Below are positions 3,573 to 7,201 of a stretch of 41,137 nt of DNA, piece by piece. Origin of the DNA: a virus. The notes under the pieces were generated by a model. It had not been told where the DNA came from. It ran no database searches and saw nothing but the letters and a program-made list of their open reading frames with translations. Every line of letters begins with the position of its first letter. Within the stretch, counting starts at the first letter, position 1. The position numbers and the translations under genes are program-made. The stretch is taken from positions 1 through 41,137 of the IMG/VR virus record IMGVR_UViG_3300010392_000279, one strand, 5' to 3'.

Positions 3573-3609
3573 ACATCTAGTGCCTGTTTATCGGTGCTAG
3601 ATGTACTTT
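3573..3609 (+). terminator. Rho-independent terminator ending the first early gene group
   Basis: Perfect 8-bp stem ACATCTAG (3573-3580) with CTAGATGT (3597-3604), extended inward by a few pairs, followed by ACTTTTTG. It lies 5 bases after the stop at 3568 and just before the second early promoter. Confidence 0.75.
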
Positions 3610-3735: not shown

Positions 3736-4245
3736 ATGACAAAATTAGATGTATTTAACGCAAAGACAAGTGAATTGGTAGCATTCTATAACGCAAACAC
3801 AACTGGCAGCCCGGTGAAGAGATTCGCAACAAGAGCAGCAGCAGAAAAAAGAGTCATGGCACTTATCGACGCACCAGCCCAGAAAGTAACACCGATTGTT
3901 GAAGAAGAACTTGCGGATGTCGACACAGCCACAGAAGAAATTGCTGAAGAAGAAACAACTGCGAAAATATCTGGTGCTGTAAAGCTCGCAGACGGGTCAG
4001 AGTGGAACAGTCAGCTGGCAGCTTCAATCCACGAAAGCTGGAAAGTGCCTGAGTTTGATGTAAAGAGGAGACAGCGATCAGCAGTTGTTGTAGACGGGAA
4101 TGAGTTTCCATCAGTTCGACAGGCTTTCATCGAGCTTGATCTCCCTCTGAGCAAGCACATAAAATTCAGAATGACTCTGAAAAAAGAAACAACTCTTGAA
4201 GAGTTCGGCATGACTTGGGAAATTGTACCCCTGAATTACAAATAG
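3736..4245 (+). CDS. Probable DNA-binding protein with phage AFYN-type N-terminus
   Basis: 169 residues. Residues 1-43 match a motif I know from many phage proteins (LVAFYNA, then PVKRFATRAAAEKRV). Residues 50-75 are an acidic Glu/Thr linker. Residues 110-145 (DGNEFPSVRQAF, then LPLSKHIKFRMTLK) resemble the NUMOD/IENR1 type of helix-turn-helix found next to homing nucleases and in phage regulators. It is the first gene after the second early promoter, so it is a good candidate regulator. The last base of its stop codon is also the first paired base of the hammerhead ribozyme that follows. Confidence 0.75.
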   Translation: MTKLDVFNAKTSELVAFYNANTTGSPVKRFATRAAAEKRVMALIDAPAQKVTPIVEEELADVDTATEEIAEEETTAKISGAVKLADGSEWNSQLAASIHESWKVPEFDVKRRQRSAVVVDGNEFPSVRQAFIELDLPLSKHIKFRMTLKKETTLEEFGMTWEIVPLNYK

Positions 4246-4315
4246 TCGAAACCACCCCGGGCAACCGGGGAATGGTCTGCCGGGGTTTGCCTCCCGGTAC
4301 TGATGAGACAGGCAA
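4245..4315 (+). ncRNA. Type II hammerhead ribozyme with a loop I pseudoknot
   Basis: All core bases are present in the type II order. GAAA is at 4248-4251. Stem III is 4252-4260 with 4265-4275 (GCAA loop, two-base bulge at 4271-4272). The cleavage triplet GUC is at 4275-4277. Stem I is 4278-4284 with 4293-4299 (7 bp, one G-U). CUGAUGA is at 4300-4306. Stem II is only G4245-U-C4247 with G4307-A-C4309. Loop I bases UUGCCU (4287-4292) are exactly complementary to AGGCAA (4310-4315) directly after stem II, giving a 6-bp pseudoknot. Predicted cleavage is between 4277 and 4278. The pseudoknot partly covers the AAGGAG ribosome-binding site (4314-4319) of the next gene. Cleavage would separate the upstream mRNA from the downstream one. 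Confidence 0.88.
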
Positions 4316-4326
4316 GGAGAACTAAA

Positions 4327-4611
4327 TTGAAAAGAACGAAACCAACAACCAACGCCAGAATAATCGCGATGCTGAATGCAAAATATCCCGGCATCACAGT
4401 ATTTGAAAGAGATGATTGCGTCATCATGTCCTGCGAAAGTGGATTTGAAGTCAACGGACTTCCTCTTGCTGATTATTATGCCGAGGATTTCATGGAAAAG
4501 ACCTACACCATGGGTGTTGAGAATAAGTTCAACAAATGGCTGGAAGATCATGAACTCTGGTCAGAATGGGACAATCCAGGATGCCTTTGCATCTATGACA
4601 ATTTAGCATGA
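4327..4611 (+). CDS. Protein downstream of the hammerhead, TTG start
   Basis: 94 residues of unknown function, acidic toward the C-terminus with several Trp and Cys. I choose the TTG at 4327, because AAGGAG (4314-4319) is seven bases ahead. The ATG at 4303 in the same frame lies inside the ribozyme core, and its mRNA would be folded. Its translation is therefore the likely target of the ribozyme or pseudoknot. Confidence 0.7.
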   Translation: MKRTKPTTNARIIAMLNAKYPGITVFERDDCVIMSCESGFEVNGLPLADYYAEDFMEKTYTMGVENKFNKWLEDHELWSEWDNPGCLCIYDNLA

Positions 4612-4616
4612 ACACC

Positions 4617-4646
4617 AAGCTCCCTCCGGGGAGCTTTATTATATTA
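4617..4646 (+). terminator. Hairpin, probable terminator or attenuator
   Basis: Stem AAGCTCCC with GGGAGCTT (4617-4624 with 4629-4636, loop UCCG) followed by an AU-rich TTATTATATT rather than a clean U run. It lies six bases after the 4611 stop and just before the GGAGG of the 4658 gene, so partial termination is more likely than a full stop. Confidence 0.55.
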
Positions 4647-4657
4647 TGGAGGTAATT

Positions 4658-4879
4658 ATGTCAAGACCAAGGACATTATTTGATGGAACAGAAGTTGCGC
4701 TGAGGGCAACAGGAGAAACAACATTACAGAAGGCATCAGACAGAAGGGCTGTTGTTGATCTATTAGTAAACAACGGAGGCAAAATGGAGATCCGTCAAAT
4801 CAATAAACATTTCGGGTTTGATATTTCTGCTGTTATCCGAGCGTTGCTGAGAACGGGATGGTTGGAGGTTGTTGAATGA
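4658..4879 (+). CDS. Small winged-helix protein
   Basis: 73 residues. The ATG at 4658 is preferred over the one at 4646 because GGAGG (4648-4652) sits correctly ahead of it. Residues 28-73 have the spacing of a winged helix-turn-helix (AVVDLLVNNGG, then IRQINKHFGF, then VIRALLRTGWLEVV). Probably binds DNA. It is translationally coupled (ATGA) to the flavoprotein gene that follows. Confidence 0.7.
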   Translation: MSRPRTLFDGTEVALRATGETTLQKASDRRAVVDLLVNNGGKMEIRQINKHFGFDISAVIRALLRTGWLEVVE

Positions 4880-5766
4880 TAATTGGAGCCGGGCTGACGG
4901 GATTGATCGCAGCACATGCATTCCCTCGGCAACAGATCATAGAGTCATCAGATGAACCTACGGACAACCACAAGGCTTTGCTTCGATTCAGGAGCTCAGC
5001 TGTAGCAGATTTGGTGGGGATTCCTTTCAAGCCTGTAACAGTTCGGAAGGGGATTTGGATGGATGATAAATGGCATTCTCCTCAGATTGACCTTGCCAAT
5101 TTGTACTCCCGGAAAGTGCTTGGGAAAATTATTGATAGGTCAATTTGGAACCTCGAAACTGTAACAAGGTGGATTGCCCCAGAGACATTCTATGAGCAAT
5201 TGATTGAGAATGTTAATCTGAGAATTGCTTGGGGAGTGGATTATGCTTTCTCTGATATAAATACAGCGCCAATTATCAGCACAGCACCTTTGTATTTGTC
5301 GGCATTTCATACCAGTATCAAAACTGAGCTCCCGGAGTTCCAAAGAGCACCAATTGAAGTGTTGAGATTCCGCATCACAGGGGACTGCAGAGTGTACCAA
5401 ACAGTTTACTTCCCGAGCCTTGAACATTGCCTATATCGGGCAAGCATCACCGGGAATTTATTGATCTGTGAGTTTGCCGGGAGTCCGTATGAAGGGAATT
5501 GGATGGTGGATGTTGAAAAGGCATTTGCGATTTATGATGCAGAACCGATTGAATCAACATCGCAGAGCTTCGGGAAAATTGCCCCGATAGATGAAGAACT
5601 GAGGCAACAGTATATTGCCACCTTGACTCGGGAAAAAAATATTTTTTCCTTGGGCAGATTCGCAACATGGCGCAACATCCTTCTGGATGACGTTGTTCAT
5701 GATATATCTGTAATCAGAAGGTTAATAACCTCAAATGAATATGGGAGAACTTTATGGCAAAAATAG
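4876..5766 (+). CDS. FAD-dependent oxidoreductase-like flavoprotein
   Basis: 296 residues. An N-terminal dinucleotide-binding fold is shown by GAGLTG at residues 4-9 (GxGxxG) and an acidic residue at the end of the second strand (E23). The C-terminus (about 265-290, SLGRFATWRN, then DDVVHD) resembles the second flavin-contact region of the UDP-galactopyranose mutase/amine-oxidase class. It is shorter than most members of that class. It overlaps thyX by 13 bases, and ThyX itself needs reduced FAD, so a role in thymidylate or modified-nucleotide synthesis is suggested by context. The substrate cannot be told from the sequence. Confidence 0.75.
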   Translation: MIIGAGLTGLIAAHAFPRQQIIESSDEPTDNHKALLRFRSSAVADLVGIPFKPVTVRKGIWMDDKWHSPQIDLANLYSRKVLGKIIDRSIWNLETVTRWIAPETFYEQLIENVNLRIAWGVDYAFSDINTAPIISTAPLYLSAFHTSIKTELPEFQRAPIEVLRFRITGDCRVYQTVYFPSLEHCLYRASITGNLLICEFAGSPYEGNWMVDVEKAFAIYDAEPIESTSQSFGKIAPIDEELRQQYIATLTREKNIFSLGRFATWRNILLDDVVHDISVIRRLITSNEYGRTLWQK

Positions 5767-6497
5767 AACTGATAGATTTTACAGGAGCAGGACATTATGA
5801 CGCGGAATGGTATGCTGCAGACATCCTGATCTTTACCAAACGCACCCGGCTCAATATGAGCCCAGAATCGTTCCGGGAAGTCCAGGATATGACTAGGGAA
5901 GAGAAGATCAAAGAGCTTGAGTATATGGCCACTACGATTGCCAGCTCATGGGAGTTTGCTGACCTGACCTTTATGATCTCAGGAGTCACCCGAGCTTGCG
6001 CCCAACAGATCACCAGAACACGCACCGGGAGTTACGCGATGCAGAGCCAACGAGTCACCGATGTCTCGGAAGCTGAAGTTGTAAATCCTTTTGCTGAAGG
6101 GGATTTTTCATTTGATTCCTTCAAGGAAGCTTCTGAAACGGCTATGCAGGAATATATGGGATTATTGAGTGAAGGAGCCAAGCCGCAGGACGCACGTGGG
6201 CTTCTCCCAATGAACATAACCTGTAATCTGGTAGCAAAGTACAATTTGAGATCCTTTGTGGATCTGGTCAAAGCCCGGAGAAGTCTCAGGACTCAAAGTG
6301 AGTATGCAGACATCATAGAACAGATGGTAAAACACGTGACAAATATATGGCCATGGGTTGAACCTTTCTTCGCAAGCGCAAATGAGAAAGCCTTGGATTT
6401 GCTCGGAGAAGTGGTTGAAGAAATGGGTCTGGAAACCGGGAAAGGGACAGGATGGAAAGTGGCCAAAGTCATGGACTTAATAAGGAGCTCAAAATGA
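5754..6497 (+). CDS. thyX: FAD-dependent thymidylate synthase ThyX
   Basis: 247 residues. ThyX methylates dUMP to dTMP using methylene-tetrahydrofolate, NADPH and FAD. The family signature RHRx7S appears at residues 88-98 as RTR-x7-S, followed by QR; the central His is replaced by Thr. The C-terminal signature is also present: NLRSFVDLVKARRSLRTQSE at about 167-186, where the family has the Asn, Arg and Gln-Glu pattern. The gene overlaps both neighbours and so belongs to a nucleotide-supply operon with the flavoprotein and the HAD protein. The altered RHR motif could affect flavin binding or substrate choice. Confidence 0.88.
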   Translation: MAKIELIDFTGAGHYDAEWYAADILIFTKRTRLNMSPESFREVQDMTREEKIKELEYMATTIASSWEFADLTFMISGVTRACAQQITRTRTGSYAMQSQRVTDVSEAEVVNPFAEGDFSFDSFKEASETAMQEYMGLLSEGAKPQDARGLLPMNITCNLVAKYNLRSFVDLVKARRSLRTQSEYADIIEQMVKHVTNIWPWVEPFFASANEKALDLLGEVVEEMGLETGKGTGWKVAKVMDLIRSSK

Positions 6498-7201
6498 AAT
6501 ATGCAATATTCGATTTGGATGGGTGTATCTCTGATGACAGATGGCGCAGGGACTTGATGCAAAAAGTTAAGTGGGATGATTATCATAAATGTTTATCCGA
6601 AGATGGCCCAATCAATATGGACATCGTTGCAGATTGCGTGGAACGGGGTTTGCAGATACTATTTGTAACAGCCCGTCCAAACAAGTACAGAAACATAACA
6701 AATGAATGGCTCATTGAACATCTTCCGATCTCATATGAAAGATGGAGTTTGTACATGCGACCTGATGGGAATGAAATGAAATCCCCGGAGTTGAAGAAAC
6801 ATTTGATTGATAACTCAGGAATAGGCTGGACAAATATCGCTGAGGCATATGACGACAGAGCAGACGTTCTCCAAATGTATGCTGATAGGGAAATCCCCAG
6901 TTGGACTTTATGTGCTAACAGGGAGCAAACTGGCGCCCCGGCTATATTGAAAGCTGGAGCAAAAACATTTGAGGAGCGTGGAAAAGTCTATGGGAAAAAT
7001 TATGTAACATTCGGACATGTTGGCAAAGCCTTATGGCCAGATGGAGTAAAACTTGAAACCCCGGAGGATTTTATCAGACATGGCATCCTTATCCAATGTT
7101 TAAGCAAGTTGACCCGATACGCAAACAACCCAAAAGGGCATAAGGACTCAGCTCACGATCTGATGGTCTATGCCGCTATGCTTGAGGAGGTAACAGAATG
7201 A
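6494..7201 (+). CDS. HAD phosphatase fused to a DUF6378-like nucleotide hydrolase domain
   Basis: 235 residues from the ATG at 6494 (ATGA overlap, AAGGAG ahead). Residues 1-145 are a HAD phosphatase: DLDGC at 7-11 (nucleophile D7, general acid D9), VTAR at 58-61 and DDRADV at 120-125, as in phage polynucleotide 3'-phosphatases and deoxynucleotidases. Residues 157-235 (KVYG, then FGHVGKALWP, then KLTRYANNPKGHKDSAHDLM) match the phage DUF6378 helical family, related by context to nucleotide pyrophosphohydrolases. The fusion suggests stepwise hydrolysis of a nucleotide feeding the neighbouring ThyX; this is inference. Confidence 0.75.
   Translation: MKYAIFDLDGCISDDRWRRDLMQKVKWDDYHKCLSEDGPINMDIVADCVERGLQILFVTARPNKYRNITNEWLIEHLPISYERWSLYMRPDGNEMKSPELKKHLIDNSGIGWTNIAEAYDDRADVLQMYADREIPSWTLCANREQTGAPAILKAGAKTFEERGKVYGKNYVTFGHVGKALWPDGVKLETPEDFIRHGILIQCLSKLTRYANNPKGHKDSAHDLMVYAAMLEEVTE

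Follow-up and report, generated by a model that had tools for sequence, protein, structure and literature searches.

Type II hammerhead ribozymes were described in 2011 by Perreault et al., who reported a pseudoknot between loop I and the 3′ tail as characteristic of the type and found prophage arrays flanking genes (PMC3088659). Tandem arrays of the phage type cleaved in vitro and in E. coli, and it was proposed that long phage transcripts are processed in this way to gene-length messages; a halovirus transcript had its 5′ end no more than 3 nt from the hammerhead site, and 4 of 18 hammerheads that conformed to the consensus were inactive in vitro (PMC3088659). RiboJ, a hammerhead-derived leader, raises transcript level about twofold (PMC6206723), and a 2017 review still counted the role of hammerheads in phages as an open question (PMC6155905).

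Here we analyse a viral record of 41,137 nucleotides from IMG/VR (the window) that carries one such element. With the type II hammerheads of RF02276 it shares the core, the permutation, the short stem II, the pseudoknot between loop I and the 3′ tail and the phage context, but it differs from them in a two-nucleotide bulge in stem III, in a new phage lineage and in a pseudoknot strand that overlaps the Shine–Dalgarno sequence of the next gene (PMC3088659). The prophage tandem hammerheads of the Agrobacterium ardA region, Azorhizobium and Clostridium scindens are likewise intergenic, with a proposed processing of transcripts to gene-length messages, whereas the window has a single copy beside one accessory gene (PMC3088659). 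HHphage of haloviruses HF1 and HF2 also lies closely upstream of a start codon (13 nt in HHphage), although it is a core variant located upstream of a helicase gene in an archaeal virus and the core in the window is canonical (PMC3088659). As predicted for the window, self-cleavage of RiboJ, a synthetic insulator made of the sTRSV hammerhead and a hairpin, gives the downstream message a 5′ hairpin; RiboJ is engineered and placed after a promoter, however, whereas the window element is natural, lies between genes and would leave a hairpin on the upstream message too (PMC6206723). The theta (HDV-like) ribozymes of gut phages are also small self-cleaving RNAs in phage transcripts, cleavage in the window being predicted, but they have the HDV fold and lie beside tRNAs (PMC10879173).

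An earlier reading of the window (the sequence-only reading) had implied novelty. This is not supported, as phage and prophage type II hammerheads, several of them with cleavage in vitro and in vivo, were published in 2011; since the type, its pseudoknot and the phage arrays were all described then, the ribozyme in the window belongs to a known kind. It is an ordinary member of a known family in a new phage lineage.

Identity, core and fold of the ribozyme

The sequence-only reading had identified a type II hammerhead and proposed a covariance-model search as a check. An Rfam cmscan of the window returned RF02276 (Hammerhead_II) over the full model length at positions 4244–4317 (+), with 44.8 bits (E 4e-6) against a curated cut-off of 37 bits, and no other Rfam family was over threshold in the window. 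The invariant core (GAAA, GUH, CUGANGA) is present in the type II order, stems I and III are closed, and stem II is open with 3 bp, above the minimum of 2 bp for the family. The pseudoknot between loop I and the 3′ tail, a majority feature of type II, forms with 6/6 Watson–Crick pairs, as had been claimed (UUGCCU with AGGCAA). Direct reading also gave the lengths previously proposed for stems I and II (Table 1). In stem III, the ten pairs and the GCAA loop stood but the continuous helix did not, since the bulged A4271 and A4272, which separate a 4-bp from a 6-bp segment, had been overlooked.

The minimum free energy fold contains both the stem III and the stem I hairpin; at −30.1 kcal/mol with the pseudoknot uncounted, the intended nested structure lies within 1 kcal/mol of that minimum (−30.9 kcal/mol). 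The folding energy of the ribozyme is not unusual (z −1.25), and the case for a ribozyme therefore rests on the motif and not on stability. A descriptor of the core and minimal stems had a single match in the window and none in any of 300 random genomes (first-order Markov, with the length and dinucleotide make-up of the window), and the RF02276 model matched 0 of 14 control genomes; together with the E value of 4e-6, these counts bear out the view that chance agreement is very unlikely. By these sequence criteria, we confirm the window element as a type II hammerhead whose loop I forms a pseudoknot. The covariance model, the full set of core residues and the published type II consensus agree with this identification and with predicted cleavage after C4277. 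The covariance search found one ribozyme copy in the 41,137-base record, which is possibly incomplete, and a tandem array, with several ribozymes flanking the genes of one operon, was not seen in it.

Table 1. Coordinates of the ribozyme, its parts and the flanking features in the window
Feature	Position	Strand	Basis
Terminator-like hairpin upstream of the two-gene unit	3573–3604	+	
Upstream gene, 169 aa, stop TAG 4243–4245	3736–4245	+	phrog_4730 (E 1.9e-31)
Type II hammerhead ribozyme, stem II to stem II	4245–4309	+	RF02276 match and core read directly
Stem II (GUC/GAC, 3 bp)	4245–4247 with 4307–4309	+	sequence
G12A13A14	4248–4250	+	sequence read directly
A15.1–U16.1 pair	4251–4276	+	sequence read directly
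Stem III hairpin, 10 bp including A15.1–U16.1, GCAA loop 4261–4264	4251–4276	+	sequence
Predicted cleavage site, C17 4277 / U4278	4277–4278	+	H17 position in family model
Stem I hairpin, 7 bp (4278–4284/4293–4299), loop GUUUGCCU	4278–4299	+	sequence
Pseudoknot strand in loop I, UUGCCU	4287–4292	+	6/6 Watson–Crick with 4310–4315
CUGAUGA core, G8 = G4305	4300–4306	+	direct reading and RF02276
Pseudoknot strand in 3′ tail, AGGCAA	4310–4315	+	pairs with 4287–4292
Shine–Dalgarno AAGGAG of downstream gene	4314–4319	+	sequence
Downstream gene, 94 aa, TTG start 4327	4327–4611	+	Shine–Dalgarno placement
Terminator-like hairpin, 5 nt past the 94-aa gene	4617–4636	+	

Position between two genes

The ribozyme occupies the whole gap from the stop codon of the 169-aa gene to the Shine–Dalgarno sequence of the 94-aa gene. 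G4245 is both the final base of the upstream TAG stop codon and the first base of stem II and, at the other end, the pseudoknot strand in the 3′ tail shares 2 nt with the Shine–Dalgarno sequence. An in-frame ATG at 4303 sits within the ribozyme core. The longest open reading frame call (4303–4611) would begin there, and the Shine–Dalgarno sequence indicates TTG 4327. Since ATG 4303 is in frame but lacks a Shine–Dalgarno sequence, automatic gene calls may misplace the start, a trap into which the annotation of genes behind type II hammerheads is likely to fall.

The overall number of terminator-like hairpins in the region is not above that in shuffles, so that those at 3573–3604 and 4617–4636 are suggestive only. 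The sequence-only reading had placed the ribozyme in an ‘early operon’; this label is unsupported, as the unit that holds the ribozyme has two genes, is delimited by these hairpins and lies upstream of the replication genes. The genes that follow are thyX, a PNKP-like phosphatase, a DnaQ-type exonuclease and DNA polymerase III alpha, and the thyX-to-polymerase module is common, whole or in part, to PB1-like Pseudomonas phages, Wifcevirus, Myosmarvirus, Carpasinavirus and Vibrio phage PVA7. In the protein encoded at 6452–7201, a PNKP-type HAD phosphatase domain precedes a C-terminal part that weakly resembles DUF6378, under the Pfam cut-off. In the PVA7 record (L087), the annotation divides both the DNA polymerase and the 4876–5766 homologue into several open reading frames, which suggests frameshift errors in the deposited sequence.

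Placement of type II hammerheads in other phages

A pattern scan yielded 81 viral stretches with type II hammerheads, and a covariance search of 45 genomes from the pattern set found additional ribozymes; array members were taken from covariance-model matches in the pattern genomes and from a looser descriptor. The resulting survey set comprises 109 judgeable type II hammerheads, the window and 108 from viral contigs. The stop codon of an open frame ends within −7 to +1 nt of stem II in 88 of the 109, compared with 3.8% of random positions, and when one ribozyme is taken per locus the stop-codon rule holds in about 40 of 45. As in the window, a TAG shares its G with stem II in 23 of those 88, a fraction that is partly built in because the pattern behind the first survey set required GTC before GAAA. 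Median distances from CUGAUGA are 13 nt to the beginning of the Shine–Dalgarno sequence and 26 nt to the start codon, and a pseudoknot of at least 5 pairs is possible in 64 of 109 ribozymes compared with 13% of shuffles. Thus the fit of stop codon, ribozyme and Shine–Dalgarno sequence is common to most surveyed phage ribozymes and the window conforms to it; the comparison supports this arrangement as a probable general rule, and its tightness hints at the job of the ribozyme.

Runs with one ribozyme per gene were found in contigs L095 (nine), L097 (seven) and L103 (three), and also in parts of L092, the maximum in one contig being 17 type II hammerheads (covariance search, 45 genomes). L092 (18.5 kb of a 64.8-kb viral contig), L095, L097 and L093 carry 7 to 17 each; in places these long arrays have a ribozyme in each gap (∼84 nt) that separates neighbouring small genes. 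Natural arrays of 7–17 members far exceed the triple arrangements tested in 2011. A search for type III hammerheads gave one sub-threshold match; it covered the window, 32 pattern-derived contigs and one named phage (34 genomes or records). No published statement of the stop-codon/Shine–Dalgarno rule or of longer one-per-gene arrays was found in a search that covered few subscription journals and is weak evidence of novelty.

Relatives without the ribozyme

Alignment of the protein encoded at 4876–5766 gathered 80 viral contigs as relatives. No ribozyme was found in the ∼90 related contigs and records examined, and no orthologous ribozyme in 85 contigs or records with the neighbouring gene family or in four further named phage records; the same search does recover the ribozyme in the window and in 40 of 45 pattern-derived contigs. 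Since no relative examined has the motif, orthologous covariation gives no support to selection on the window copy. In 11 close relatives, no other Rfam family was over threshold.

In relatives L121, L174, L168 and L179 the homologue of the post-cassette gene is the immediate neighbour of the phrog_4730 gene, and in L113 and L114 the two are separated by a terminator-type hairpin alone, 5 nt past the phrog_4730 stop codon. The window has a similar hairpin 5 nt past the 94-aa gene. Because phrog_4730 adjoins the next gene or a terminator hairpin in some ribozyme-less relatives, the ribozyme and the 94-aa gene look like an accessory cassette. On the simplest reading, this cassette was inserted between phrog_4730 and the terminator that originally followed it, and the comparison of relatives supports such an insertion. 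The gap downstream of phrog_4730 is a variable site, with other genes there in other relatives. Contigs L112, L115, L116, L118, L120 and L125 have different small genes between the phrog_4730 homologue and the counterpart of the gene at 4646, and in several of these six the gap holds a similar ∼250-aa protein.

Roseobacter phages encode weak relatives of the 94-aa protein, and the gaps beside these apparently hold no ribozyme. A single-sequence scan of viral contigs found no relatives of the 169-aa or the 94-aa protein, no match to the 94-aa protein was obtained in genome contigs, and there were no DNA-level relatives among phage records.

Discussion

Among the hammerhead permutations, type II alone places the cut between two closed hairpins, so that a hairpin would cap both new ends. 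We consider it reasonably likely that an active ribozyme divides the transcript of the two adjacent phage genes and gives separately protected messages. After transcription, the ribozyme would fold in the gap between the stop codon and the Shine–Dalgarno sequence and then cut after C4277. The upstream message would end in the stem III hairpin, 5 nt past the stop codon, with a 2′,3′-cyclic phosphate and a 1-nt overhang; the downstream message would open with a 5′-OH immediately at the stem I hairpin, then run through the Shine–Dalgarno sequence and the 94-aa gene and end at the terminator-like hairpin beyond that gene. Such hairpin ends should withstand 3′ exonucleases and 5′-end-dependent decay, and the ribozyme would restore a hairpin 3′ end to the upstream gene and supply the newcomer gene with a 5′ end of its own. 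We infer that cleavage would take place in the cell, protect the ends and affect expression. The compact fit could stem from the economy of phage genomes instead of from end protection.

Given the general size of ribosomal footprints, a ribosome terminating at TAG 4243–4245 would sit over stem II and GAAA, as would a 30S subunit at TTG 4327 over the pseudoknot strand. Since ribosomes at either place would overlap the ribozyme, translation may gate it: cleavage would report translation of both genes, and the pseudoknot, which falls entirely inside the predicted downstream product, would modulate translation initiation on the 94-aa gene. The overlaps of the stop codon with stem II and of the pseudoknot strand with the Shine–Dalgarno sequence fit this account, as does the generality of the same spacing across the survey, but simple compactness predicts identical spacing, and we regard such a translation-gated regulator as unlikely. 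Absence from all relatives examined, the single copy, and the apparent lack of a ribozyme beside the weak relatives of the 94-aa gene would agree with a genuine hammerhead by descent that came with this accessory gene as a neutral or slow passenger and has no selected role. That is quite unlikely in our estimate, as core bases, three stems and a 6-bp pseudoknot are all intact in a 43% GC genome, and the element sits exactly at the position favoured in the survey.

A chance resemblance with no catalytic function, to which the ordinary folding energy might point, is very improbable in view of the E value, the 300 random genomes without a match and the position between stop codon and Shine–Dalgarno sequence. 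The PNKP-like phosphatase gene (6452–7201) in the neighbouring gene block raises the idea of a circular-RNA or ligation system in which this enzyme heals the ends. With one ribozyme in the record there is no flanking pair to release a circle, however, the ribozyme-less relatives TH15 and FEC19 also carry a PNKP gene, and Perreault et al. sought spliced or circular products and found none (PMC3088659); we regard such a system as improbable in the extreme. A link between the ribozyme and the PNKP-like phosphatase was dropped, because ribozyme-less relatives carry PNKP too.

Beyond division of this one transcript, it is conceivable, although doubtful, that type II hammerheads act as a standard joint that gives single-gene, hairpin-ended messages, is gated by ribosomes and travels as the head of accessory cassettes. 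If true, such a joint would let a gene join an operon without disturbing the gene that precedes it. The tight placement and one-per-gene runs give specific predictions on message ends, stability and translation.
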